Source: a virus
Strand: one strand, 5' to 3'
DNA: 25,431 nt
Virus record (IMG/VR): IMGVR_UViG_3300029448_000395
Coordinates: 1 to 25,431 of that record
Shown here: positions 3,927 through 23,951 of the stretch, one piece after another
Layout: every line of letters begins with the position of its first letter
Numbering within the stretch: position 1 is the first letter of the stretch
Notes under the pieces: model-generated
What the model saw: only the letters and a program-made list of their open reading frames with translations
What the model was told of the DNA's origin: nothing
Database searches by the model: none
Made by a program: the position numbers and the translations under genes

Positions 3927-4142
3927 ATGTTTAATTATTACGTAAATAAGAGTAGTAAAGATCATACGACATATTGTTTAAGATTCTTATATATATTTAT
4001 TATAGGAGTTGGAGTTAGTAAAATGGTAGGTAAATCATTTACGATTTATCTAAGTATTGCTAAATTGCAATTTATGTTTGATATTACTTACTTTGGTGCA
4101 TTACAATCTAATGTGAAACTTGGAACACCTGGTGACGCATAG
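3927..4142 (+). CDS. Small membrane-associated phage protein, unknown
   Basis: This 71-residue protein starts at ATG 3927, 11 bases after the helicase stop, with AAAGGAG at the right spacing. Residues 17-30 (CLRFLYIFIIGVGV) are strongly hydrophobic and could form a membrane helix. They are followed by alternating hydrophobic strands (FTIYLSIAKLQFMFDITYF). No family is recognised. The good ribosome-binding site and tight packing between two clear genes make it a real gene. The last 11 bases overlap the preferred start of the nuclease gene, so the two are probably translationally coupled. An open frame on the opposite strand (3738-3965) runs over this start but lacks support and is treated as a shadow. 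Confidence 0.6.
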   Translation: MFNYYVNKSSKDHTTYCLRFLYIFIIGVGVSKMVGKSFTIYLSIAKLQFMFDITYFGALQSNVKLGTPGDA

Positions 4143-4473
4143 AAATAAAATACGTGGCAACAATCTTGAAAGAGAATGTGTCAATGTGGCTAAAGAAGCT
4201 GGGCTTTCTGGAGAGAGAGCCTATGCTTCTAATGGCTTAGCATTGGGCAAATCCGAACAAGTAGATTGTTTAGTAGAAGGATATGCAATTCAGGCTAAAA
4301 TGAAAAAGAAAATTGCACAATGGTTATATCCTGAGCATCATGCAGATGATGTAGACTTAGTAGTAACACGTATGGATCGAAAACAAGCATTAGCAGTAAT
4401 ACCATATAAAGAATGGATAAGATTAATTAAAATAGAAAAGGAGTACAATAGTGGCAAAGATAAATCTGAGTAA
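4132..4473 (+). CDS. PDDEXK-fold nuclease, Holliday-junction-resolvase-like (putative)
   Basis: The protein has about 113 residues. The pattern is that of small PDDEXK nucleases such as archaeal Hjc: RGNNLERE with a conserved Glu (E13), a Gly-rich turn (ASNGLALG), then VDCLVEGYAIQAKMKK giving D45 and a Q54-x-K56 pair. The Q-x-K replaces the more usual E-x-K. The rest (VDLVVTRMDRKQALAVIPYKEW) fits the last strand and helix of the fold. It would resolve branched recombination or replication intermediates, consistent with neighbours for annealing, SSB and helicase. GTG 4132 (overlapping the previous stop, weak GGA upstream) is preferred; TTG 4120 is the alternative, and a TGA just upstream rules out anything longer. 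It could also be a restriction-type or VRR-like nuclease. Confidence 0.55.
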   Translation: MTHRNKIRGNNLERECVNVAKEAGLSGERAYASNGLALGKSEQVDCLVEGYAIQAKMKKKIAQWLYPEHHADDVDLVVTRMDRKQALAVIPYKEWIRLIKIEKEYNSGKDKSE

Positions 4474-4615
4474 AAAAGAAGGCGTCATTATAATTAAATT
4501 AGCTCAACAAATTATTAAAGCATTAGAAAAGGAAAAGCATTTAAAAACAATACGCAAATCTGAAGATAATCATGATAATACTGGGTATATAAACGGGAGC
4601 GGAGGATATGAGTAA
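4451..4615 (+). CDS. 54-residue phage protein, unknown
   Basis: GTG 4451 lies inside the end of the nuclease gene and is preceded by AAAAGGAG, an ideal ribosome-binding site. The product begins MAKINLSKKEGVIII, has a lysine-rich amphipathic helix (KLAQQIIKALEKEKHLK) and ends in a Gly/Asn-rich tail that encodes the Shine-Dalgarno of the next gene. No family is recognised. The start signal and the 8-base overlap with the next gene are what mark it as real rather than chance. Confidence 0.6.
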   Translation: MAKINLSKKEGVIIIKLAQQIIKALEKEKHLKTIRKSEDNHDNTGYINGSGGYE

Positions 4616-4772
4616 GAAAGATAAAGAAAAGAATTATTTAGATTTCTACAATCCAGCAGAATTGATGATAGTTAAAGCAGCATTACTCAATTATAGAAAA
4701 GCACCTTTTGTTGGTGAAACAGAAAAAGAAATGATTGAAGAAATACTTAAGAGAATTAATCAAGATAATTAG
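4608..4772 (+). CDS. 54-residue phage protein, unknown
   Basis: ATG 4608 follows GGGAGCGGAGG, giving two candidate ribosome-binding sites. The product is MSKKDKEKNYLDFYNPAEL then a predicted helix (MIVKAALLNYRKA) and an acidic-basic helix (ETEKEMIEEILKRI). It is entirely soluble and looks like two helices. It is the last gene before the 160-base structured element at 4776-4935, and its stop lies only three bases before that element. Function unknown. Confidence 0.6.
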   Translation: MSKKDKEKNYLDFYNPAELMIVKAALLNYRKAPFVGETEKEMIEEILKRINQDN

Positions 4773-4775
4773 ACA

Positions 4776-4935
4776 ATTATCCCCCCTATAAAATAAACAT
4801 GCATTACAAGGATGCAGGCGGGTATCCAATCCCGTACGCTTGACATATGTTTTTCATTATTTTGTTCATGCTTGTATTGCAAATACATCGGTTGGCACTT
4901 ATGTATAAATATATTAACAAATAAGGGGGGATAAT
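4776..4935 (+). promoter_or_regulatory. 160-base structured element closed by a perfect C6/G6 inverted repeat (candidate riboswitch-like leader or ncRNA)
   Basis: ATTATCCCCCCT (4776-4787) is the exact reverse complement of AGGGGGGATAAT (4924-4935), a 12-bp closing stem with six G-C pairs in a very A+T-rich genome. Inside are: AAACAT/ATGTTT (4795-4800/4847-4852); a GCAT/ATGC hairpin with a 7-base loop (4801-4804/4812-4815); CGGG/CCCG with an 8-base loop (4819-4822/4831-4834); and two mutually exclusive hairpins, TGTATT/AATACA (4873-4878/4882-4887) and ATACAT/ATGTAT (4883-4888/4901-4906). Loop bases CCAAT (4826-4830) can pair with loop bases GTTGG (4891-4895), with one G-T pair, a possible kissing interaction. 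The right arm touches the Shine-Dalgarno (AAAGGAGA 4936-4943) of the next gene. No open frame of note lies inside. A small inverted-repeat mobile element is an alternative, though no flanking direct repeat is visible. Confidence 0.55.
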
Positions 4936-4946
4936 AAAGGAGAAAT

Positions 4947-5099
4947 ATGAAGCAACCAAAAAGAGATACAGTTTGGGATGTAAATGTTGAAGGTAAATTG
5001 AATAGTAATAATATTATCTTTCATACTAATAAATATCAACGAATTGTGTCAAAACTTAAAAAATATAATGATTTTATAAAAAAAGTAAAGGAGCTTTAA
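4947..5099 (+). CDS. 50-residue basic phage protein downstream of the structured element
   Basis: ATG 4947 has AAAGGAGA immediately upstream, abutting the closing stem of the element at 4776-4935. Folding of that stem could therefore affect ribosome access. The product begins MKQPKRDTVWDVNVEGKL and ends with a lysine-rich helix (YQRIVSKLKKYNDFIKKVKEL). No family is recognised. Its stop overlaps the next start (TAATG), so the two genes are probably translated together. Confidence 0.6.
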   Translation: MKQPKRDTVWDVNVEGKLNSNNIIFHTNKYQRIVSKLKKYNDFIKKVKEL

Positions 5100-5263
5100 T
5101 GGAATGTACAATTTGTACTAATGGAGTACCAGCATCTGAACCAATAGAAACAGGTGATCCAGGACATTACATTGCTTTATGCACTGGGTGTCGAGATTGG
5201 GGAGAGTTCGAAAACGAAGAAGAGATAGAAGAAAAGGAATTCGAGCAAGAAAGAATTTCATAG
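5099..5263 (+). CDS. 54-residue zinc-ribbon protein
   Basis: ATG 5099 overlaps the previous stop, and AAAGGAG lies just upstream. The protein has two CxxC pairs, C3-x-x-C6 and C28-x-x-C31, with a 21-residue spacer: a classic small zinc ribbon. A highly acidic C-terminal half follows (EFENEEEIEEKEFEQE). Short zinc ribbons in phages often contact host RNA polymerase or act as small regulators, but here the role is unknown. It is the last gene of the left block and is followed directly by the terminator hairpins. Confidence 0.7.
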   Translation: MECTICTNGVPASEPIETGDPGHYIALCTGCRDWGEFENEEEIEEKEFEQERIS

Positions 5264-5270
5264 TAGAAAA

Positions 5271-5291
5271 CAAAGGGAAATTTGCCCTTTG
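5271..5291. terminator. Hairpin at end of left block (possible - strand terminator)
   Basis: CAAAGGG (5271-5277) pairs with CCCTTTG (5285-5291) around a 7-base loop. On the - strand the stem is followed by TTTTC, so it may back up termination of the late operon. On the + strand no T-run follows, so there it may only protect the 3' end of the message. Confidence 0.5.
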
Positions 5292-5295
5292 GAAG

Positions 5296-5342
5296 AAAAA
5301 AGTTTACGAGGATCGTTATAGGTCTTTGTAAACTTTTTTTTT
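5296..5342. terminator. Bidirectional Rho-independent terminator between convergent gene blocks
   Basis: AAAAAAGTTTAC (5296-5307) pairs perfectly with GTAAACTTTTTT (5328-5339). The T-run continues to 5342 on the + strand, and the A-run of the left arm supplies T residues for the - strand. The 20-base loop can extend by GATC/GGTC pairing. It sits between the last + strand gene (ends 5263) and the end of the - strand operon (5397), exactly where a bidirectional terminator is expected. Confidence 0.85.
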
Positions 5343-5396: not shown

Positions 5397-8300
5397 TTAT
5401 TCTTCAATTTCATCTTCTTTAGGTCTTTTATCATCACCTAACCTACCAAATGTGTGAACTGGTATACCTAAAGTGTATTCCATCCACATTTCAGGCGTTT
5501 CTAACGATCTTACAACATCTCTACCTAACCTACCAAATGGAAATGCAGTTGCAAAAGTATATTTCCAAAAGTTTTCAAAATCATTGTTTATTAATCCAAC
5601 CATTGGAGTTAATCCAAATCTTGCAATAGGAGGAGTAACAATACCTAATGGAGCTAATGCTGGATGTCCATATTGATTATAGAAAGCTCTTTCTCTTTCT
5701 TGGTCATCACCAAACATTAAATGTGAAAAATCTACTGCCCAATTCATAGGTGGAGATAATGCATATTCAAATAAAGATGCAGCAAATACAACAGACAATG
5801 CAGAAACCATTAAATCTGCACTCATTTGTCTTTCAAATCTTTTATTTGCTTCAAAATTACCATAACCTTCAGTTAACATATAATCATTTATAATATTAGC
5901 TCTTCTTCTGATACTATTCCAACCATAAGGATGGAAACGTGTCATCATTCTACCAAATGCAGTATTAGCAAAATTAGGTCTATTTGTAGCATGATAAATA
6001 AATTGTGATGCAGCAATACCTTTTTTAGCATAATCTAATAAAAACTCTTCACTTACTTCAACCTTACCTCTACTATCAGTATATAATTCTTTAGCTTTTA
6101 AATAATGAGAAATAGCAGACTTAATACGCAAATGTCTTTCAGTAGATCTCATTGCTAAAGAACCTAAATCAAGGAATTTCTTAGTAATACCTTTGTCTTT
6201 AGCAGATTCCATAAAAGTTCTTTCAACTACTGCTTCTCTTTCAAGTTCATTAGCTCTATTTAATTCTTTATCTTTTGTATAAATAGGAAGTTTAGCAAAT
6301 TTTCTTTGAATTATTTCACCAGTTTCTTTAGCAAATTCTTGCCAACGTGTTTCACCAGGAGGTCTCATCATAGCCAATTCCATGGTAATATTATTTTCCA
6401 AGAACCCATATGACTCAAAATACTGATGTATATGTCTTTTATTTTTAATAGTAATAGATTCCCATTCTTTTTTAGTAGGGTCCCATCTATTAAATTTAAC
6501 ACCTTTAAAATGAACATTAACTAATTTATCTTCACTAAAAGATTCAAAATAATGTTTAAAACCAGTATCAGTAATGGTATTTAAAGTACCACCATATAGA
6601 TTAGCAACAGCTGATTTAGGGTGTGCAAGTAATGACATCATTTCAAACTTACCTTCCATATCAGATAACCAATTTAACTTAGAAACCATACCTTTATGTC
6701 TTGCTTGTGGATCAGTTGGTAAATCTTTAAAAATTTGTATCCTATTACCAGTTACATATCCTAATGCTTTATTAGCAACATTATCAAATTTCAACATAAC
6801 ATTACCAACAGTTTCATCACTATACCAAGATCTAAATGATTTTCTCATATTAATTTTATCTACATTAGCAGGTTTACCTTTGCTATCTACAGATTCTATA
6901 AATTCTTTTTTATATTGAAGTTCTAATGTACGAACCATACCTTGTTTACCTAAACCACCATCACTTATTTTAACTTTACGAACTGTTCCATTTGTTTTTG
7001 TTACTGTGCTATTAGCCCAATCTACGTATTGAATTTCATTGTTATATATTTCTTTTCTAGTTTTAATATCTGTAAATTTACCATATAATTTATGTCTATC
7101 ATTTCTTTGTTTTCTATTTAAATCTCTAAAATAATCATTTTCAAGTGCTTTAACTTGTTCTGCTTTTTCTTCTTTGGTTAATTTTTTATTTTTTCTAATA
7201 TTTTTTCTATCATTTCTAAAAATTGCTTTTTTAACAGTATAATCACTTTTAAATCTTATATCTCTTTGCATAGCATTTATTTCAGTATCACTAGGCATAG
7301 TCCATTGATCAAAATCTTTTATTAATTTAGCTTCAATAGTTCCTAATCTTTTATCTACTATAAACGAATCTGAAAAACCAGATTTTTGATAATCTTTTAA
7401 AATATCCATCTCTTTAGCTGTAACACCATTTATATCTAAATCTCTAGTAGATTGATATCCCATATAACCTTTAGTCATATCAATCATTTTATTTAACCAT
7501 TTTTCTCCATGTTCTCTTTCTATATGTTTATTACCATGAACACCATTTTTAAAATTAGTTAATAAGAGCCTAGATTGAAGTGCTGCTAATTGTTGAGTTA
7601 TACCATCAGATGTTTTTAAAGCATAATTTTTTAAAGCATCAAAGGTTACGTCATATCCTTCAACTGGTACTGCTGTTCTAGTTCTACCATGAGTAGGAAC
7701 ACCTATACCAATTCTTTCAGATGCAGACGAATTTCTTCTTGATGATAATTTTGATAATTCACGTTCAACTGCTGGATCATGTAATTCATTGTTATATCTT
7801 TGAGGATCTTTTACTAAAGTGTTTATCATTCTTTTGTATAAAACAGCTCTAGCATCTTGAAGAGTTAAGAAACCTTCAGTAACTTGCTGTGCTAACCTTG
7901 GAGATTCTTGTCTTATTTCAGCTAAAGTTATACCTTGCTTGTAATCAAAAGTACCATCTTCTCTTTTATTTCCAAAAATACGAATAGTTTCTGCTGGAAT
8001 ATGTTCTTCCATTATTCTTTTAACACCAGCTTTGGTACTATCTTGACCCATTAAAGGCCAATATCTTTTAGAGAATAAAACTCCATCAACTTCTTGAGCA
8101 CCAATTTTACCAGTTTTAAGAGATCTAAGCTGTCTTTTATTAGTTTCTTTTATTATCTTTTGAACTTCTTTAAATTGACCAGCTTTTTTTAAAGCAACAG
8201 GATCTAAGCCAATTCTTCCATTTTTCATTACAGTACCATAATTCATTTCTAATGTATCTAATAAATCTAATTGTAGATTGATCCAATTTATATCATCTAT

Positions 8301-11300
8301 ATGAGGCTGTCTTTTAATTACATTCTTACCTTCTTTCAAATCTTTGTTTAAAACATTGTATTCATCTAAGAATAAAACTCTTTCCCTATCTATCCAACCT
8401 TCTTTAGATAAAAACATTTCAGATAAAGATTTTTCCCAATAATTAGCATCTTCTTTTCTAACTTTATCTCCATAAAATTTATCATAATTAAACATTCCAC
8501 CAAATTTACCTTTTTTAATAGTCTTACGATTTAAAACTTTTTCCATTTCAGCGTAATTACTTTCATACATATCTTTATATACAGAAGAAGCAAATGGTTC
8601 AAAAATTTCTTTTTTAACATAATTAACTAAATCTCTTGAAGTCATATCTACTGTATCTCCAGTTCCTCTATCTTTAATTCTAAAGACAGTTCCTTCTGGA
8701 ATGCTTTCTAATGCTTTTCTAGATTGAATCAAATTTCTTTCTAAGTTATCTAAAGATCTTTGATGTTCATTTACTCTTGGTCCAGTTCCATCCCAAGCTC
8801 CATCTTTTTCAATACCAAGTTGTCTTTCATATGCAGCTACAGCTGATATAATATCTTTATACTTGTTATATACTTTAGGATTATCAGTTCTAATTCCATC
8901 TAAATATCCATTATATTCTTGTTCCATAGCTTTACGTAAAGCATTTGCAGCTTCATGTTTAATTCCTATTTTTTCACCTATAAGTTCTATGGTACTAGCA
9001 GGCATTCTAACTCCATATTCTTTAAACTTGCCATTTTCTAATACTTGTGCTTTATCTACTCTGAACAAGTTTTCATGTTTAGCCATTATTTTACCTAATT
9101 CAGAAGGAAATAATAGGTCTATAGCCCAATCTGGTGGTAATAATTGAGAATCAGGATCTAATTGAAGATCTTCCATCTCTTTTACAAGGTCTTTGTGTAT
9201 AAGTTTTCTAGCTGCCCATTCTTTATGTGTCATTAAATATCTATTTTCAAACATATTGTTTAAAATTCTTAAATGATTATAGTCTATAGTCTCTGTAGTT
9301 ACTTTAGCAGCAATATCTAAAGCTTTAAATCCTCCAGTATATTGACTAGATACGTCCATAGCTCCAGCTATATTGCCACTTTTAATCATTTGATATATAT
9401 TTCCTTGGAATCTTCTAAGTTCTGAATCTAAAAACTCACTATGAACTTTATATTTAGATGTAATTTTTTCTTTTTTTGCTATTTGTTTCTGAAGTTCTTT
9501 CTGAATGTCTTGAGACTGAGATACTGCTTCCCAATCAAATAAAGATTCTTTAATAAACTTACCTACATCTTCCATTTTAGGATTTACTTTTTTACCATAC
9601 ATTTCAGAGAAATTTTCTACAGGTTGTAAATATGGTTCAGTTTGATTTTTGAGCATAGTTTCTGTAGCTTCTACTACTTTTTGTTGATTAGCTCTTAAAA
9701 CATCTTGTTCAAATTTAGCAATATCTAATTTAACTTCTTTAGATATAGCACCATTTCTGTTCATATTATCTCTAGAGTGCTTTTCTATATAATTTCTTCT
9801 TTCAAAACCAAAAGCTTCTAAGTCACTTGTTAAATTATTGTATTTACTTCTATCTCTTTCGCCTTGTTTGCCACGCCATGAAGACATATCTAACTTATCT
9901 TGGTCAATTCTAGGGTTTCCTTTTTTACCACCTACAAAATCTACGATATTTCTACGTTCTCTTAATTTGTTTTTGTATTTTCTTTGAACATTTTCATGAT
10001 ATGTTTTTTGAGAATCAGTCATATTTGTAAAACTAATTTCAGCCATATGTGGATGTGCTTCATGCCAATATTCAAACAGTTGTTCAATTCTTCTATAAAT
10101 TTCTTGTTTAGCTTTTTGTGGAACAGACTTTTTGCCTTTTGCAAATCTACCGCTATCAAAATATTCATCTAATTGTGTTTTAAGCATTTCTTTAGAATGA
10201 TAAACTTTTTCTGCATAACTCATTTGAGCTAGAGGGTCTTTAATGCTTTTATTCTTTCTATATCTAACTGTATCAGCTTTTTGCTGTTGTGCAATATGTG
10301 CTACCTCTGCTACAAAATTATTTAAATCTTCTCTTTTGTATATACCATACTTTTCAAAATCACCAACTAAATCTTCTACAAATCTATTACTTTCCATAAT
10401 AGCTTTTGCTACTCTGATTGGATGCATTTTATTATATAAAAAATGAGGATTTTCCATTATAACATCTTGTTCTTGTTTGGTCATATCTCTTAACAAGTCT
10501 TTATTCATATCTCTTATACTAAACAATTCTTGCCCAAAAGGATCGTTTTCAATCATCTTACTTAATTTTCTCATGGTATTTAAAATATCTCTTTTTTCAA
10601 TTCCAACAAATGGATCTATATCAAGATTCCAATTTTTAGAATGTTCAGCCATAGTTTTAAATATACTATTTGCACTTCCATGTTCTTTTATTACGTCATT
10701 AGATAGTTGCTTATATGTTTTTCCTTCTGGTAAAATACCTCTAAATGCAGCTTGATGATAGTTTGAATACGTTGCACTTTGTTTAGCATTATAATCTTTA
10801 GCCCAACGTTCTGAAAATCTTTCTACAACCCATGGAGCAGGGTCAATATAGCTAACTTCCGCAGCATCAATATACTGATTAGATATAGAAGCAGTTTCTA
10901 CTATCATCTCTTGCCATAACGCTTCAGCTTCTTTTTTTGACATTTTTGGATTTCTTTGTATAGCTAAATTTAAAGCTAACTTTGCTTTCATAAAGCCATT
11001 AAACAACTGACCTATACTATCTTTACCATATGTAGCTGCAATACCAGCTTGTTGCTTATGTCCAAGTAAAAGCATTTTAAATGGATTTGATGCATCGTTT
11101 TTATCTATATATTGAGCTTTTGTCCAGTACTGATTTACTTTTCTATCTTTTAATTCTTTATCAGGGGATAGTTGAGGATTGTTTCTATCTATTTTTTCAG
11201 ACATTTCAAATCTTACTTTGTCTTGTCTATATCCCTTTACAATATCTTTTGGCATACCCCAGGATAAATGCGCAGAGTCAATATCTTTATCAGCTCCACC

Positions 11301-14300
11301 CATATACATATCGTTTCTACCATTAGTAATCAACATAGAACCTGTTCCATTTTTACCTTTAACCCACCCAACAAACTTTAAAGCTCTCATATTACCAGAA
11401 GTTAATACTGGAGAACGGTTTATTAATGCATATTGAGAATCTATCCATCTTTGGTATTCTCCTTTACCACTTAAAGAAGCAATAGTTTTTTGGTCTCCTT
11501 CTAGTATTTTAGACATAGTTTTCCACCAGTCTTTTAATTTTATATATTTTTTAGGGTTAGAAGGATCTTTCATTCTCATGAAATTACCAGCACCTTCCCA
11601 TAGCATAAATTCTTTATCTCCAAGACCTTTTTTTTCTGTAGAGTATTTTTGTTTTCTTGACGCAACTTTATAGTCATAAGGTCCTAATATAGCTTTATAA
11701 GTATTTTCTACTCTCGGTCTTACTATTCTAGAGAAAGCATAATTTCTCCACGATTTTTGAACAAACTCACTAGTACCTCTACTCATCAAGGTAGTATAAC
11801 TAAAATCTGTACTAGCTAAATGTTCTCCTACGTGTAAAGAGCTTATCTTGTCAGATTCCAGCATCTCCATATCTATTGTTTGTTGAGTCTTATCTTTATA
11901 GAATAAATGTTTTATTACATCAGCAGCTGCTTTACTTTGAATGTTAGTTGATAATAGTTTACTCAATGTTGTCATAGAAATTTTATCTATATCTATTCCA
12001 GATAAATCTTTATTATCGTTAATTCTTTTATTTGCTCTTTCAGTTTGTAATGTATCTCCATTTACGTTTTCTCTAATTAAAGTTTTCCAACTATCATGAA
12101 ACTTTTTACCCTCTGGAGTTTTAGGGTCAAATTGAACATCGTTTATATTTAAAAACATTTGTTGCATAATGTTTTGAGAGTGATCCGAATTGCTCGGCTT
12201 CATAGATTCATACACATGAGGATTTAAATATAAATCTTGTGTAGATAAATTAAATGTTTTAGCTTCTGACGGATAAGACATTTCTCCAGTAAGCTTATCT
12301 TGAGACATTTTATTAATAGGTACTCTAGGTGCATGCTTAGCAGCTGAAGTATACATTATTGCCTTAGGATTATCTGCATGGCTTTTCATATATGCTGTAT
12401 CTTCTTTATCTGCTCTTACATAAGCAAACTTTCCTATAACTACACCACGTGTTCCATCAGGATTAGAATAAACAGTACCTTTAGCTGTTCCAGATTTTAA
12501 TACTCCACCTAAACGAAGCATTGTTGCATCGTAAAAATCAGCATCTAATATAAAAGTACCATCTACACCAGACTCATATAAAACTTCTTTTTTATCTAAT
12601 ATTCTTTTATAAACTGGGTCTTCTATTAAAATTGCTTTAAAATTGTTATCTGCAAAACCGTATTCTACTCCATCAAGAAAAGGGATTTCTGGCTTATCTC
12701 TTTGGTTTAAATATTTTTGTTGTTTTGAAGGGTCTACAAATCCTCCTTGTTTTTCAGCAGCTAACCATTGTTTTTTTAAACCTATTAAATTTGTATAATT
12801 AATATCTTTATTACTTTTTATAAGACCTAAATCTCTTAATCTATATATGTATGTTGCAACGGAATTATTTTTTACAGATAAACTATTTAACGGGTTTTTT
12901 AAATCTAAAGAATTTTTAAACTTTGAAGTACCACCACCCATTAAAGAATTGTAAATTCTTGTTACTTGCTGTCCTGAAAGTAAAGGGTCTTGAACTATAG
13001 CTTTATCTGTTCTCCCTTTAGTGCTCCAAGGTAATGTTCTAACGTCTATTCTACCAGTATCCCCTATTGTACCGTAAATAAATTGACCTTTTTTATTAAG
13101 GTTTTTTTCTAAATTCAACCATTGCAGCTCAGTAACATTAGCTTCTACTTCGAAACCTGTAAATTTACCCTTTTTAAAAACCCCTTTTTGGTATTTAGAG
13201 TTAGGAGAAACGTATTGTGCATCTATAATATTTTTATATGTTCCATCTTTTTGAGGAACGGATCTTTCTCCAACTACTTCTATATAGTCTATAGAATAAC
13301 CCCACATGGTGTTAAATCCTTTGTAAGTATCTCTAACTCCACTACCTTCTCTTGTTACTATATTACCTTGCGGGTCTGTTTCTGGTGTTGGATATGGCCC
13401 TTTAGGAACTTTTATATTTTTTTGTTTATTGTTTTTATTTCCAACAAGACTAATTATATGACTGTCCTTGCTAGGTTTTATTTGGTCAAATGCATGTGCT
13501 TGACTTTTTAAAGTTTGTTCTTGCCCTTTTACTACGGAATCTCCAAACTGTAATCTTATTTTTTCTACAAATTTATCAGCATCTATACGATTATCGGGAG
13601 CTTCGTTTTTTACTTCGTTATAAATAGTTCTAATACCTTTATGTGCTGATTCTGTATTTATATTAGCTTGAGTTTTTATTTTGTCTACAATTTGAGATAA
13701 AGACCCCATAGGTAATTCAGTTTCATTAGTAGTCGTTGAATTTTGATCTCTAAAATTGTCTCTAACAGTAAGAGGTTCTAAATTTATAAAATATTTTGGA
13801 TTATAAGCACTTCTTTTTACATCTGAAGGAGAATAGTTAGGGTCTATTTTTTTAGCTTCTTGTTCAGCAATATATTTAATAGCTTCTAATTTACCTTCTT
13901 GCTCACCTTTAGTTCTTAATATTTCTTGTATTTGCTCCTGAGTAACAAGACCTTCTTTTACTGCTCTATTAAATGCTTTAGCATACTCAAGGTCTACCTC
14001 TGCTTTAACTTCAAAGATACTTTCAATTTGTTGAACTCTAATAGATTCTAAATATCTATCCCAATACATTTGGAACTCTGGTGATTCATCTTTAAACCAA
14101 GGTTGTTTTCTTACATGAGCTTTAGCCTTATCCATTGACAAGGTTCTTTCTAATTCAGGAGCTCTTTCTACAATAGATTTAGTAGCTCTATTTTCCCAGC
14201 TTGATCTACCATTTACACTAAAGAATACTCCCATCAAGGTTTCATATACGACTTCTTCCATAGGCAAATCGTTTATAGCAGAAGATACACCTCCATATCC

Positions 14301-15374
14301 TGCTCCCATAGTACCTCTAGTTAAAGTGTTTATAAGGTTAAATACCTCAACATCATTTTCTTTTCTTGATAAAGACCTTGCTGTTTTTCTTACAGCATCT
14401 TCTCCAAATTTTCTTACTGATGGATTCTTTGACGCTAATAGCTTACCTATATTACCATACTCACCAATACTTCCAAATATACCACCTGCAATAGCACCGT
14501 GCATACCAGCTTTAGCCATATTTTTAACACCATCAACTGTAAGTCCAGCTTCATTTCTACTTGCTAAAGGATGGTTTGAAAACGCCATTAACAAACCTAC
14601 GTGACCTGCTTCATAAAGTATTCTAGAAACAGCTTCTTCTCCCATTTTATTTCTTAGTAACCCTTTGGTAATAAATTGCATAGCCTTATCTTTATTATCA
14701 CCTAAGAAAGCAAGTCCTTGTTCTTGAACTACTTCTGCTAATTTACCAGGAATAGATTTTAATTCATAAAGAGCTTTACCATCTTTAATAGGGTCCATAC
14801 CAACTGCTCTAGAACCACGGAGACCATAAACTAACTTATCATCAGCATCTGTTTTAGATAGCGTATTTGCTACTTTTGCTAATCCATAATTTAGTTTTTT
14901 ATTTTTAAGCTTCCAATTTCTTGATTGTGCTTCAAGTTTTTTACCAGTTTTAACTAAGTTTTTATTCTTTTCAGCTATACCTCTTCTTACTAAAGATTGT
15001 CCCACTGTTTTAGTAGCACCAGTAATCATTCTTAATCCACCAGCCATTACTCCAGGAGCAAGACCTATAAGGTGTCCAACGTTATTAATGATTTTTTCTG
15101 TAGGAGTATCAGGTTCATCTGCAAAACCAAACGTAGTAAACCCTTCTAACAACCCAGAAACTGCTTGTTTAACAACTCCATCTGTTATCTCTGGTTTAGC
15201 AAAAGGGATATCTAGTTCTTTGAATTTACCTTCAACATAACCTAATGTTTCTTCATCAAATGTAGTTCCAGCTTGGTCATATAGACGTTTTAGACGTATT
15301 GCAAATTCTCTTCGGTCTATAATACCGCTCTGAAGTTGATTAGATAATGCTTTTACAGCTCCGTTAGTAATCAT
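5397..15374 (-). CDS. Giant 3325-residue virion protein with candidate two-barrel RNA polymerase domain
   Basis: ATG 15374 follows the previous stop with no gap, so translation is probably coupled. Residues about 60-400 hold several small-residue hydrophobic stretches (LIGLAPGVMAGGLRM, GAIAGGIFGSIG), as in proteins that cross membranes during ejection. Residues about 930-1460 show a DG-x-x-I segment (D938), K965 in TAKGT, K1013 in SAAKH, NRSP (R1320-P1322), and DKDID (1362-1366). This order matches single-chain RNA polymerases with two double-psi beta barrels, whose Asp triad binds Mg and whose lysines lie in the other barrel. Residues about 1800-2800 are largely charged helices. The end holds LAHPKSAVANLYGG (near 2920), a FGRMMTRFHPYGW segment (near 3140) and a hydrophobic stretch (near 3190-3220), as in other giant phage and polyvalent proteins. 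Position last in the internal-virion-protein operon suggests packaging in the capsid. An inactive polymerase relic, or a T7 gp16-type ejection protein with no polymerase activity, is the main alternative. Confidence 0.7.
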   Translation of the reverse strand: MITNGAVKALSNQLQSGIIDRREFAIRLKRLYDQAGTTFDEETLGYVEGKFKELDIPFAKPEITDGVVKQAVSGLLEGFTTFGFADEPDTPTEKIINNVGHLIGLAPGVMAGGLRMITGATKTVGQSLVRRGIAEKNKNLVKTGKKLEAQSRNWKLKNKKLNYGLAKVANTLSKTDADDKLVYGLRGSRAVGMDPIKDGKALYELKSIPGKLAEVVQEQGLAFLGDNKDKAMQFITKGLLRNKMGEEAVSRILYEAGHVGLLMAFSNHPLASRNEAGLTVDGVKNMAKAGMHGAIAGGIFGSIGEYGNIGKLLASKNPSVRKFGEDAVRKTARSLSRKENDVEVFNLINTLTRGTMGAGYGGVSSAINDLPMEEVVYETLMGVFFSVNGRSSWENRATKSIVERAPELERTLSMDKAKAHVRKQPWFKDESPEFQMYWDRYLESIRVQQIESIFEVKAEVDLEYAKAFNRAVKEGLVTQEQIQEILRTKGEQEGKLEAIKYIAEQEAKKIDPNYSPSDVKRSAYNPKYFINLEPLTVRDNFRDQNSTTTNETELPMGSLSQIVDKIKTQANINTESAHKGIRTIYNEVKNEAPDNRIDADKFVEKIRLQFGDSVVKGQEQTLKSQAHAFDQIKPSKDSHIISLVGNKNNKQKNIKVPKGPYPTPETDPQGNIVTREGSGVRDTYKGFNTMWGYSIDYIEVVGERSVPQKDGTYKNIIDAQYVSPNSKYQKGVFKKGKFTGFEVEANVTELQWLNLEKNLNKKGQFIYGTIGDTGRIDVRTLPWSTKGRTDKAIVQDPLLSGQQVTRIYNSLMGGGTSKFKNSLDLKNPLNSLSVKNNSVATYIYRLRDLGLIKSNKDINYTNLIGLKKQWLAAEKQGGFVDPSKQQKYLNQRDKPEIPFLDGVEYGFADNNFKAILIEDPVYKRILDKKEVLYESGVDGTFILDADFYDATMLRLGGVLKSGTAKGTVYSNPDGTRGVVIGKFAYVRADKEDTAYMKSHADNPKAIMYTSAAKHAPRVPINKMSQDKLTGEMSYPSEAKTFNLSTQDLYLNPHVYESMKPSNSDHSQNIMQQMFLNINDVQFDPKTPEGKKFHDSWKTLIRENVNGDTLQTERANKRINDNKDLSGIDIDKISMTTLSKLLSTNIQSKAAADVIKHLFYKDKTQQTIDMEMLESDKISSLHVGEHLASTDFSYTTLMSRGTSEFVQKSWRNYAFSRIVRPRVENTYKAILGPYDYKVASRKQKYSTEKKGLGDKEFMLWEGAGNFMRMKDPSNPKKYIKLKDWWKTMSKILEGDQKTIASLSGKGEYQRWIDSQYALINRSPVLTSGNMRALKFVGWVKGKNGTGSMLITNGRNDMYMGGADKDIDSAHLSWGMPKDIVKGYRQDKVRFEMSEKIDRNNPQLSPDKELKDRKVNQYWTKAQYIDKNDASNPFKMLLLGHKQQAGIAATYGKDSIGQLFNGFMKAKLALNLAIQRNPKMSKKEAEALWQEMIVETASISNQYIDAAEVSYIDPAPWVVERFSERWAKDYNAKQSATYSNYHQAAFRGILPEGKTYKQLSNDVIKEHGSANSIFKTMAEHSKNWNLDIDPFVGIEKRDILNTMRKLSKMIENDPFGQELFSIRDMNKDLLRDMTKQEQDVIMENPHFLYNKMHPIRVAKAIMESNRFVEDLVGDFEKYGIYKREDLNNFVAEVAHIAQQQKADTVRYRKNKSIKDPLAQMSYAEKVYHSKEMLKTQLDEYFDSGRFAKGKKSVPQKAKQEIYRRIEQLFEYWHEAHPHMAEISFTNMTDSQKTYHENVQRKYKNKLRERRNIVDFVGGKKGNPRIDQDKLDMSSWRGKQGERDRSKYNNLTSDLEAFGFERRNYIEKHSRDNMNRNGAISKEVKLDIAKFEQDVLRANQQKVVEATETMLKNQTEPYLQPVENFSEMYGKKVNPKMEDVGKFIKESLFDWEAVSQSQDIQKELQKQIAKKEKITSKYKVHSEFLDSELRRFQGNIYQMIKSGNIAGAMDVSSQYTGGFKALDIAAKVTTETIDYNHLRILNNMFENRYLMTHKEWAARKLIHKDLVKEMEDLQLDPDSQLLPPDWAIDLLFPSELGKIMAKHENLFRVDKAQVLENGKFKEYGVRMPASTIELIGEKIGIKHEAANALRKAMEQEYNGYLDGIRTDNPKVYNKYKDIISAVAAYERQLGIEKDGAWDGTGPRVNEHQRSLDNLERNLIQSRKALESIPEGTVFRIKDRGTGDTVDMTSRDLVNYVKKEIFEPFASSVYKDMYESNYAEMEKVLNRKTIKKGKFGGMFNYDKFYGDKVRKEDANYWEKSLSEMFLSKEGWIDRERVLFLDEYNVLNKDLKEGKNVIKRQPHIDDINWINLQLDLLDTLEMNYGTVMKNGRIGLDPVALKKAGQFKEVQKIIKETNKRQLRSLKTGKIGAQEVDGVLFSKRYWPLMGQDSTKAGVKRIMEEHIPAETIRIFGNKREDGTFDYKQGITLAEIRQESPRLAQQVTEGFLTLQDARAVLYKRMINTLVKDPQRYNNELHDPAVERELSKLSSRRNSSASERIGIGVPTHGRTRTAVPVEGYDVTFDALKNYALKTSDGITQQLAALQSRLLLTNFKNGVHGNKHIEREHGEKWLNKMIDMTKGYMGYQSTRDLDINGVTAKEMDILKDYQKSGFSDSFIVDKRLGTIEAKLIKDFDQWTMPSDTEINAMQRDIRFKSDYTVKKAIFRNDRKNIRKNKKLTKEEKAEQVKALENDYFRDLNRKQRNDRHKLYGKFTDIKTRKEIYNNEIQYVDWANSTVTKTNGTVRKVKISDGGLGKQGMVRTLELQYKKEFIESVDSKGKPANVDKINMRKSFRSWYSDETVGNVMLKFDNVANKALGYVTGNRIQIFKDLPTDPQARHKGMVSKLNWLSDMEGKFEMMSLLAHPKSAVANLYGGTLNTITDTGFKHYFESFSEDKLVNVHFKGVKFNRWDPTKKEWESITIKNKRHIHQYFESYGFLENNITMELAMMRPPGETRWQEFAKETGEIIQRKFAKLPIYTKDKELNRANELEREAVVERTFMESAKDKGITKKFLDLGSLAMRSTERHLRIKSAISHYLKAKELYTDSRGKVEVSEEFLLDYAKKGIAASQFIYHATNRPNFANTAFGRMMTRFHPYGWNSIRRRANIINDYMLTEGYGNFEANKRFERQMSADLMVSALSVVFAASLFEYALSPPMNWAVDFSHLMFGDDQERERAFYNQYGHPALAPLGIVTPPIARFGLTPMVGLINNDFENFWKYTFATAFPFGRLGRDVVRSLETPEMWMEYTLGIPVHTFGRLGDDKRPKEDEIEE
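10995..12587 (-). other. Candidate double-psi beta-barrel RNA polymerase core within the giant protein
   Basis: This covers residues about 930-1460. First barrel: VDGTFILDADF resembles the DG-x-G-x-I-S strand of two-barrel RNA polymerases; TAKGTV resembles their K-G strand, and IMYTSAAKH the S-x-x-K segment carrying the second lysine, 48 residues later. Second barrel: NRSPVLTSGNMRAL aligns by eye with bacterial beta-prime NRAPTLHRLGIQAF, and GGADKDIDSA with NADFDGDQM. The spacing from Arg to the first Asp is 42 residues here and 35 in E. coli. Downstream, QQAGIAAT....SIGQL (about 1441-1457) faintly resembles the beta-prime GIIAAQSIGEP segment before the trigger loop. Asp triad and surrounding order are seen directly; enzymatic activity is inferred. 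Confidence 0.6.
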
Positions 15375-22810: not shown

Positions 22811-23570
22811 TTCCGTCTATTACCTTTCCCCATACGGACGTTTTACCGTCAATTATTTCTACTGGTTCAACTTTAAAAGATCCATTATCAAACCAATCTA
22901 CGATTGCAAAGGCATGTGCCCAATTATGCAATCTTCCTTTTAACCATCTATTCTTGTCATGAGACATATCTTTTAAACATCCCATAGACCAAGCACCTAT
23001 ACTTCCATTCAACTTTGTAAGGGTATGTCTTTGCAAGTCGTGGGTATGTCCATATATTACATTCTCTCCGTAAGCTTCGAGATGTTTTTTTGCATGATAC
23101 GTAGTTGCATAGGCACCATGGAAAAAAGTGAGTTTGCCAATTTGTATAGGTAAATTATATTCACTGTATTTATACCCTCTCTCTTTTATTTTACATGCTT
23201 TAAAAAACGAGTAATCAGTAAGATAGGGATACTTAGTAACAAAATTATCCAACCAGAGATCGTGGTTACCTTGTAATAAATACTTTTCCTTACATCTAAC
23301 TTTTTTAAGAACTTTATCCCAAACATCTAATCCTTCATTTACTAATCGTATATCTTCATCAACAATAGGTAATTGAAATTCTAACGGCGGAAGTTTCTTA
23401 TCTTTATATCTCCATGCCGATACAGATTCCCATTCACCTACATCTCCTAAATTTACAAATATATCAGGCTTTATCATTTCAATAGCCTTAATAACGCAAT
23501 TTACTGCAGCTTTATCTTCTAACGGATAATGCTGATCTGGTATTATTATACCACGTTTCTTGAGTTTCAT
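22803..23570 (-). CDS. Calcineurin-like metallophosphoesterase
   Basis: ATG 23570 follows AAGGAGAG. The protein has 255 residues and all the metal-binding motifs of the family in order: D12-x-H14 (PDQHYP), G-D43 (NLGDVGEWE), G-N102-H103-D (QGNHD), H151 (FFHGAY) and G-H175-x-H177 (YGHTHD). Such enzymes cleave phosphomono- or diesters with two metal ions. Phage members are common but their substrates are mostly unknown; nucleotide second messengers, DNA ends or cell-wall phosphate are all conceivable. The gene sits between the holin and the tail genes in the late operon. No signal peptide is visible, so it probably acts in the cytoplasm of the infected cell. Confidence 0.9.
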   Translation of the reverse strand: MKLKKRGIIIPDQHYPLEDKAAVNCVIKAIEMIKPDIFVNLGDVGEWESVSAWRYKDKKLPPLEFQLPIVDEDIRLVNEGLDVWDKVLKKVRCKEKYLLQGNHDLWLDNFVTKYPYLTDYSFFKACKIKERGYKYSEYNLPIQIGKLTFFHGAYATTYHAKKHLEAYGENVIYGHTHDLQRHTLTKLNGSIGAWSMGCLKDMSHDKNRWLKGRLHNWAHAFAIVDWFDNGSFKVEPVEIIDGKTSVWGKVIDGND

Positions 23571-23579
23571 GTACTCTCC

Positions 23580-23951
23580 TTAAGCTGATCTTTTAACTTT
23601 TTCTAGACTACGCATTCCCCCGAGACCGAGCATCCCGAGTAAGACTGTAGTTAGTGTAGTCATATCAAACACTGGTAATTCTATTACGTGTCCAAACGAA
23701 TACAAAATAAAAGTTAAAAGAGGTTGTAGTATGTAGTGATACCCGAGTGCAGTGGCACAAATCCAGCCCGTAAAGGGCCTCCAGCCACTGACAAATCTCG
23801 ATGTATGACCAGCTTCAACTTTGTTTACTTCTAATTGGGCTTTGTTAATTTCTGCAATCATCATAGCCTTTTCTTCCTTGTCCAAAGTAAATCTATCAAC
23901 ATTGTCTGCGACTTTGTCAATAATTTTTCCAACTAGGTCTAATCTAGGCAT
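23580..23951 (-). CDS. Holin, 3-TM superfamily
   Basis: The start is placed at ATG 23951 (MPRLDLVGKIIDKV), giving 123 residues; an in-frame GTG at 23972 would add seven. The protein has a basic-acidic N-terminal helix, then SGWRPFTGWICATALGY, a signature of the phage 3-TM holin family. Three hydrophobic segments follow (roughly 58-72, 74-90 and 98-113), and it ends in LGLGGMRSLEKVK. Holins oligomerise in the inner membrane and set the time of lysis. Its partner is most likely the T4-type lysozyme at 17560-18072, which is not adjacent. The gene overlaps the end of the preceding coiled-coil gene by eight bases. Confidence 0.85.
   Translation of the reverse strand: MPRLDLVGKIIDKVADNVDRFTLDKEEKAMMIAEINKAQLEVNKVEAGHTSRFVSGWRPFTGWICATALGYHYILQPLLTFILYSFGHVIELPVFDMTTLTTVLLGMLGLGGMRSLEKVKRSA

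Follow-up and report, generated by a model that had tools for sequence, protein, structure and literature searches.

A structured phage RNA conserved near the 3′ end of an early operon

What is the compact element that separates two small genes at positions 4776–4935 of the window, the 25,431-nucleotide stretch of IMG/VR record IMGVR_UViG_3300029448_000395 analysed here? The window is part of an A+T-rich phage genome that has only weak protein matches to cultured phages; its contig identifier and those of its relatives hint at a possible marine origin. A preliminary description had drawn attention to a 12-bp G6/C6 inverted repeat closing 136 bases, and we located both of its arms, which are perfect (ATTATCCCCCCT, 4776–4787; AGGGGGGATAAT, 4924–4935). 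The 25-kb window holds no second repeat of this kind (12 bp, at least six G/C, 60–200 apart), and the same search returned six repeats in total from 200 mononucleotide shuffles of the window. The predicted fold of the element has an energy of -47.2 kcal/mol, compared with a shuffle mean of -33.4 (z = -3.6), and none of 200 shuffles equalled it. The element takes up the space from the stop codon at 4772 to the Shine-Dalgarno sequence at 4936: its closing stem, P1, starts three bases past the stop codon of the upstream ORF, and its 3′ arm ends immediately before AAAGGAG (4936–4942), the Shine-Dalgarno sequence of the next ORF, which bears out the earlier remark that stem and Shine-Dalgarno adjoin. 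The features are collected in Table 1.

Table 1. Features of the element and its neighbours in the window.
Feature	Position	Strand	Remarks
RusA-like nuclease gene	4120..4473	+	Synteny bait; PHROG 244, E 1.6e-6
Upstream ORF, 54 aa (FYNPAELMIVKAALLNYRKAPF)	4608..4772	+	Most constant neighbour of type I/II elements
P1 closing stem, 5′ arm AUUAUCCCCCCU	4776..4787	+	Pairs perfectly with 4924–4935
Joining segment AUAAAAUAAACA	4788..4799	+	Relatives' equivalent AUAUUAACA (alignments)
P2 hairpin UGCAU[UACAAGG]AUGCA	4800..4816	+	16 stem versions, all paired
Pseudoknot strand UACAAG in P2 loop	4805..4810	+	Partner CUUGUA 4871–4876
P3 hairpin GCGGG[UAUCCAAU]CCCGU	4818..4835	+	Loop region with A(A/G)(U/C)C
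P3 loop segment CCAAUC	4826..4831	+	Complementary to GGUUGG 4890–4895 (candidate kissing/tertiary pairing)
Insertion, P3 to pseudoknot strand	4836..4870	+	Window and few relatives (L001, L121, L284), from alignment
Pseudoknot 3′ strand CUUGUA	4871..4876	+	CCUU(U) in most relatives
Near-invariant block GCAAAUAC, P4 5′ strand	4879..4886	+	Relatives' alignment
P4 hairpin AUACAU..AUGUAU	4883..4906	+	Conserved loop GGUUGGC at 4890–4896; covariation
3′ joining segment AUAUAUUAAC	4909..4918	+	Conserved in types I and II (alignment)
P1 closing stem, 3′ arm AGGGGGGAUAAU	4924..4935	+	Adjoins Shine-Dalgarno of ORF 4947–5099
Downstream ORF (NNIIF family)	4947..5099	+	Neighbour not conserved
Opposing late operon, last gene 3325 aa	5397..15374	-	Marks convergent junction near element

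Relatives were reached by three routes, through the replicative helicase, through core patterns and through the upstream RusA-like nuclease, the last of which is unbiased with respect to motif; altogether, 79 distinct elements were extracted from IMG/VR phage contigs. The helicase route gave seven IMG/VR loci (helicases 76–83% identical), all seven with the element at the same site. In their alignment the stems vary freely and the loops are fixed, the most constant letters being GCAAAUAC and UUGGUUGGC; P2, for example, reads as in Table 1 in the window, CGCUU[UAAAAGG]AAGCG in L002 and CAGAU[UAUGAGG]AUCUG in L001. Because core patterns, which contributed many further members, require these constant letters, we assembled a nuclease-based collection (protein alignment A4, 80 loci), in which the contig reaches the site at 77 loci, those of L297, L314 and L342 ending short of it, and an element is present there in 76 of the 77. 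Forty-one of these 76 carry the exact motif and 35 are diverged (including L334 and, by eye, L274), and the record of L297 has an element at its other contig end (L176). The sole exception among the 77, L306, shows a clean gene-to-gene junction at the site; the element of this genome, with unchanged orientation, is found 4 kb upstream, where a ThiF-like gene and a homologue of window ORF 491–1108 flank it. Further afield, in species-representative genomes of bacteria and archaea, one core pattern had two matches, both at unrelated loci, and the pattern GGATGCNGGCGGGNATCC was abandoned as a family search since it gave chance matches. As for cultured kin, the helicase weakly matches one Bacillus phage and the nuclease matches Salinibacter phages; searches for cultured relatives with two structural proteins returned no match.

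The conserved structures that emerge from comparison with these relatives are P1, the hairpins at 4800–4816 and 4818–4835, of the ordinary kind mentioned in the preliminary description, and the hairpin at 4883–4906. P1 occurs among relatives in 54 distinct versions, with four to six pair types at every pair position, and its arms are complementary at 9.0 of 9 positions within an element and at 4.3 of 9 after arms are swapped between relatives. Since the P1 search maximises over positions, its scores were compared with those of dinucleotide-shuffled flanks, whose mean is near 19; best-stem scores are mostly 23–38, and as a single short stem scoring 23 lies inside the shuffle range, the evidence for P1 is that of the whole set. 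For the inner helices, an alignment of 46 members to our model R1, which is biased towards the model, has 96.6% of P2, P3 and P4 cells paired, two-sided changes in 11 of 14 core pairs, and a covariation score of 0.459; shuffling gave 0.183, with none of 500 shuffles as high, and slid alignments did not exceed 0.123. Two-sided changes affect four of five pairs in P2 and all five modelled pairs in P4 among the 46 members, P4 being additionally supported in the second architecture described below. A MAFFT alignment (A3) contains five pairs with two-sided changes, a count that its shuffles also attain, and has 39 two-sided cells and a covariation score above all 500 shuffles. Furthermore, P2 and P3 contain approximately 57 wobble (G-U) cells and 10 unpaired cells, which points to an RNA made from this strand and not to a DNA cruciform. 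Compensatory change and presence in relatives, the comparison by which the preliminary description proposed to judge its own reading, thus strongly favour a conserved RNA; the core secondary structure, its conservation and its strand are established. Judged by this comparison of sequences, 4776–4935 is conserved as RNA by its structure, not by its sequence.

Two tertiary contacts are possible as well. In 42 of 45 members, at least 4 bp can form between the P2 loop, whose final letters are AAGG in nearly every member, and a CCUU-like strand that precedes GCAAAUAC; the pairing reads UACAAG/CUUGUA in the window, L121 and L284 and AAAGG/CCUUU in the others, a compensatory A-U to C-G change. Additionally, nearly all members that have P3 carry ARYC (AAUC, AACC or AGUC) in its loop region, and each of these can pair with GGUU in the P4 loop. 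The loop complementarity reported earlier, CCAAU (4826–4830) with GUUGG (4891–4895), is real and extends in the window to CCAAUC (4826–4831) with GGUUGG (4890–4895), a contact longer than the core. Because GGUU is near invariant, the P3/P4 loop contact offers no double compensatory change. The putative pseudoknot (L2 with CCUU) and the kissing pair that we infer between ARYC and GGUU are supported by their consistency across members, short of full covariation, and the complementarity of ARYC and GGUU would be compatible with either intra- or intermolecular pairing. The overlapping hairpins at 4873–4887 (UGUAUUGCAAAUACA) and 4883–4906, put forward earlier as mutually exclusive, both exist in the window; relatives read AAAGCAAAUAC in place of the former, which cannot form there, so that any switch between the two would be peculiar to this genome.

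The core is also found in other arrangements. In a second architecture, represented by 15 aligned elements (among them L063, L091, L099, L217, L224, L312, L318 and L339), P1 and the AAAUAC..GGUUGGC block are kept, P2 and P3 are missing, and a covarying hairpin is found inside P4 with a loop, UUAGU, that is invariantly complementary to ACUAA upstream; in L318, a P4 pair changes from U-A to C-G. We considered that this architecture might be a circular permutation and dropped the idea, as a modular reading, in which P1 and P4 are kept and the P2/P3 module is missing, is simpler. A minimal form of 86–100 nt (L221, L232, L220, L167 and others) follows, in other phages, other early genes, several of which end in a DELPF/DLPF-like tail like that of single-stranded-DNA-binding proteins.

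The position of the element in the genome and its copy number are established as well. The rightward genes of the window end with the nuclease and small ORFs and meet the end of the leftward late operon at 5397, and the mapped genomes repeat this layout, with the element closing the rightward early operon and facing the leftward late one. The same convergent early/late junction holds the element in G027, a phage with a terminase from another PHROG, and in G031, the genome with the relocated copy, it lies in a noncoding stretch of about 480 bp between unrelated genes. What follows the element varies (an NNIIF-type small protein, a zinc-ribbon, a GroES-like or an 'INVSINEQGQ' protein), and some relatives have no ORF between it and the opposing late operon. 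As the downstream genes differ or are missing and one copy has relocated by 4 kb, the element is independent of any one gene. A match occurs in 27 of 30 records, nearly always as one strong element per record, for which reason we rejected a multi-copy regulon. The gap from stop codon to Shine-Dalgarno sequence leaves no room for a promoter or terminator of its own, and the type I element would therefore be made as part of an mRNA. That ATATACTCC, which precedes type II elements, might be a phage promoter found no support, as the word is present in other places too and is missing near the remaining types.

Several observations were made around the element. In type II elements (L171, ~6455–6490; L274, ~4107–4157; L185 and L195), the stretch from the last ORF to P1 contains an additional strong hairpin, at which the upstream message may be terminated or processed. 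In the window, the last rightward ORF is closely followed by another inverted repeat (AAGTTTAC..GTAAACTTTTTTTT, 5260–5340) that resembles a terminator of the operon itself. The late protein encoded opposite the element is 3000–3450 aa long in the window (5397–15374), G006, G012, G013 and G024, and a tblastn search of 50,697 phage records with its C-terminal 999 aa found no match. In relatives, a Prok-JAB-like gene (below cut-off) and a ThiF/E1-like gene lie side by side in the early operon (L252, 16818–17762 and 17728–18384, in G006; 23092–23763 in G031), a pair that is reminiscent, by analogy, of the ubiquitin-like conjugation/deconjugation modules of phages. The 89.8-kb record IMGVR_UViG_3300030116_001948 (L294, L312), with two nuclease loci and two element architectures, looks like two related phage genomes joined, and element matches at both contig ends of G012 (IMGVR_UViG_3300030116_002299; 111–205 and 44700–44802) suggest a terminal repeat and hence a genome that is complete or circular.

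Is the RNA one that is already known? A scan of the window and its relatives against Rfam 15, including permissive thresholds, gave no family match and one unrelated match, in L164. No published description of the RNA family was found, which is weak evidence as subscription journals lie mostly outside the coverage of the search. GOLLD and ROOL, which are far larger and are present in Rfam, gave no match to the element. They resemble it in being phage-associated and noncoding, in having conserved tertiary contacts and in a function that was initially unknown (PMC12286853). We also considered whether GCAAAUAC might lie in a tmRNA-like tag or a small ORF and rejected this, as its spacing to GGUUGGC shifts by single bases between relatives and keeps no frame; for the same reason, the element is not coding. 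The element almost certainly belongs to a new, large family of structured RNAs that a group of uncultured phages carries.

What such an RNA does is less certain. We propose, with about an even chance of being right and on the strength of sequence comparison, that the element is an autonomous phage noncoding RNA that acts in trans and is embedded in early transcripts; of the two roles named in the preliminary description, leader and small noncoding RNA, the latter fits best. It would be a compact structured RNA of about 160 nt, read along the early (rightward) operon, in which P1 (9–19 bp) would isolate a domain of P2, P3, the loop-strand pseudoknot and P4, and the near-invariant GGUUGGC loop of P4 could pair with the P3 loop either within one molecule or between two copies. 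The domain would arise close to the 3′ end of the early transcripts as these are made, remaining in the mRNA or being processed from it, and we infer that it is stable or processed in this way; it may then bind, in trans, a protein or other macromolecule of phage or host. Its presence at nearly every locus examined, its near-invariant core and its freely varying helices imply strong selection for a specific function. A bolder version, in which a trans-acting RNA machine, possibly oligomerising via GGUUGGC, is needed by at least two terminase lineages for host takeover, counter-defence or the early-to-late transition, strikes us as rather doubtful.

A cis effect on the mRNA would yield much of the same conservation, which counts against action in trans. 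As a 3′-UTR or intercistronic element of the early message, the RNA could protect upstream messages against exonucleases, direct processing or uncouple the translation of neighbouring ORFs, a reading that is the main rival and that we consider possible though on the unlikely side. It would account for a type I P1 whose two ends lie a few bases past the preceding stop codon and at the following Shine-Dalgarno sequence, for the fact that most genomes have the element at, or close to, the 3′ end of the early operon, and for an upstream ORF that is more constant than the downstream one. However, a mere stabiliser would require no near-invariant GCAAAUAC and UUGGUUGGC across dozens of distinct elements, and the copy in G031 has unrelated genes on both sides of its noncoding stretch.

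The adjoining Shine-Dalgarno sequence, in type I relatives as in the window, raises the alternative of a ligand- or protein-sensing leader of the next gene, in which, in the window, AAGG of L2 and AAAGGAG of the Shine-Dalgarno sequence could compete for the CUU strand; the conserved junction and loop letters resemble a binding site, and the window has its alternative hairpins. This we judge improbable, since the following genes differ or are missing and belong to no consistent functional class, the hairpin at 4873–4887 is not found in relatives, which have no conserved expression-platform fold, and the element is relocated in G031. Likewise, the preliminary description matched it to no riboswitch class, and the Rfam scan agrees: no riboswitch exceeded its cut-off, and matches up to E 10 were at chance level. 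What we take to be the core consensus of cobalamin-type riboswitches, GGAA..GGUGAAAAUCC.., resembles UUUAAAAGGAAGC..GUGGUGAAAAUCCACC of type I elements together with the loop-loop contact, but the likeness is confined to some type I members, others varying freely there, no regulated cobalamin gene is present, and models RF00174, RF01482 and RF01689 gave no match at E up to 10.

In a packaging-RNA analogue, copies would join by intermolecular P3/P4 loop pairing and act on the capsid or portal in the manner of phi29 pRNA (RF00044), the nearest RNA in appearance and a phage RNA of similar size that also has, within a closing helix, pairable segments AACC then GGUU in the same order (GGAUUAAACCCUG and AUUGGUUGUCAA in phi29; GUAUUAAACCCUG and AUUGGUUGGCAA in L177). 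We regard this as very improbable. RF00044, which scores phi29 at 145 bits, found no match in 22 records of these phages, a search run without a positive control, and model R1 does not recognise phi29 pRNA. The terminase of these phages is of the ordinary nuclease-domain type (TerL of G006 has a Terminase_6C RNaseH-like domain), in contrast to the gp16 ATPase of phi29, and with model scores and terminase type both failing, pRNA identity is unsupported. Moreover, the junction differs and the element has a P2/pseudoknot module, it lies mid-genome at an operon junction whereas phi29 pRNA is at the genome end, AACC sits in an interior loop in phi29, and pRNA loop letters vary in general whereas those of the element hardly vary. 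A ribozyme, for which optional modules around an unchanging core, together with a closing stem that varies, would be typical, and with which two architectures retaining P1 and the AAAUAC..GGUUGGC core while exchanging other helices would agree, is scarcely to be expected, given that no Rfam ribozyme matched and no consistent candidate cleavage site was seen.

By sequence and structure, the element represents a new class of RNA without a described relative in Rfam, and the 79 elements and two architectures make structure probing and partner pull-down feasible. If the RNA does act in trans, it would be a new phage tool for controlling host or virion processes.
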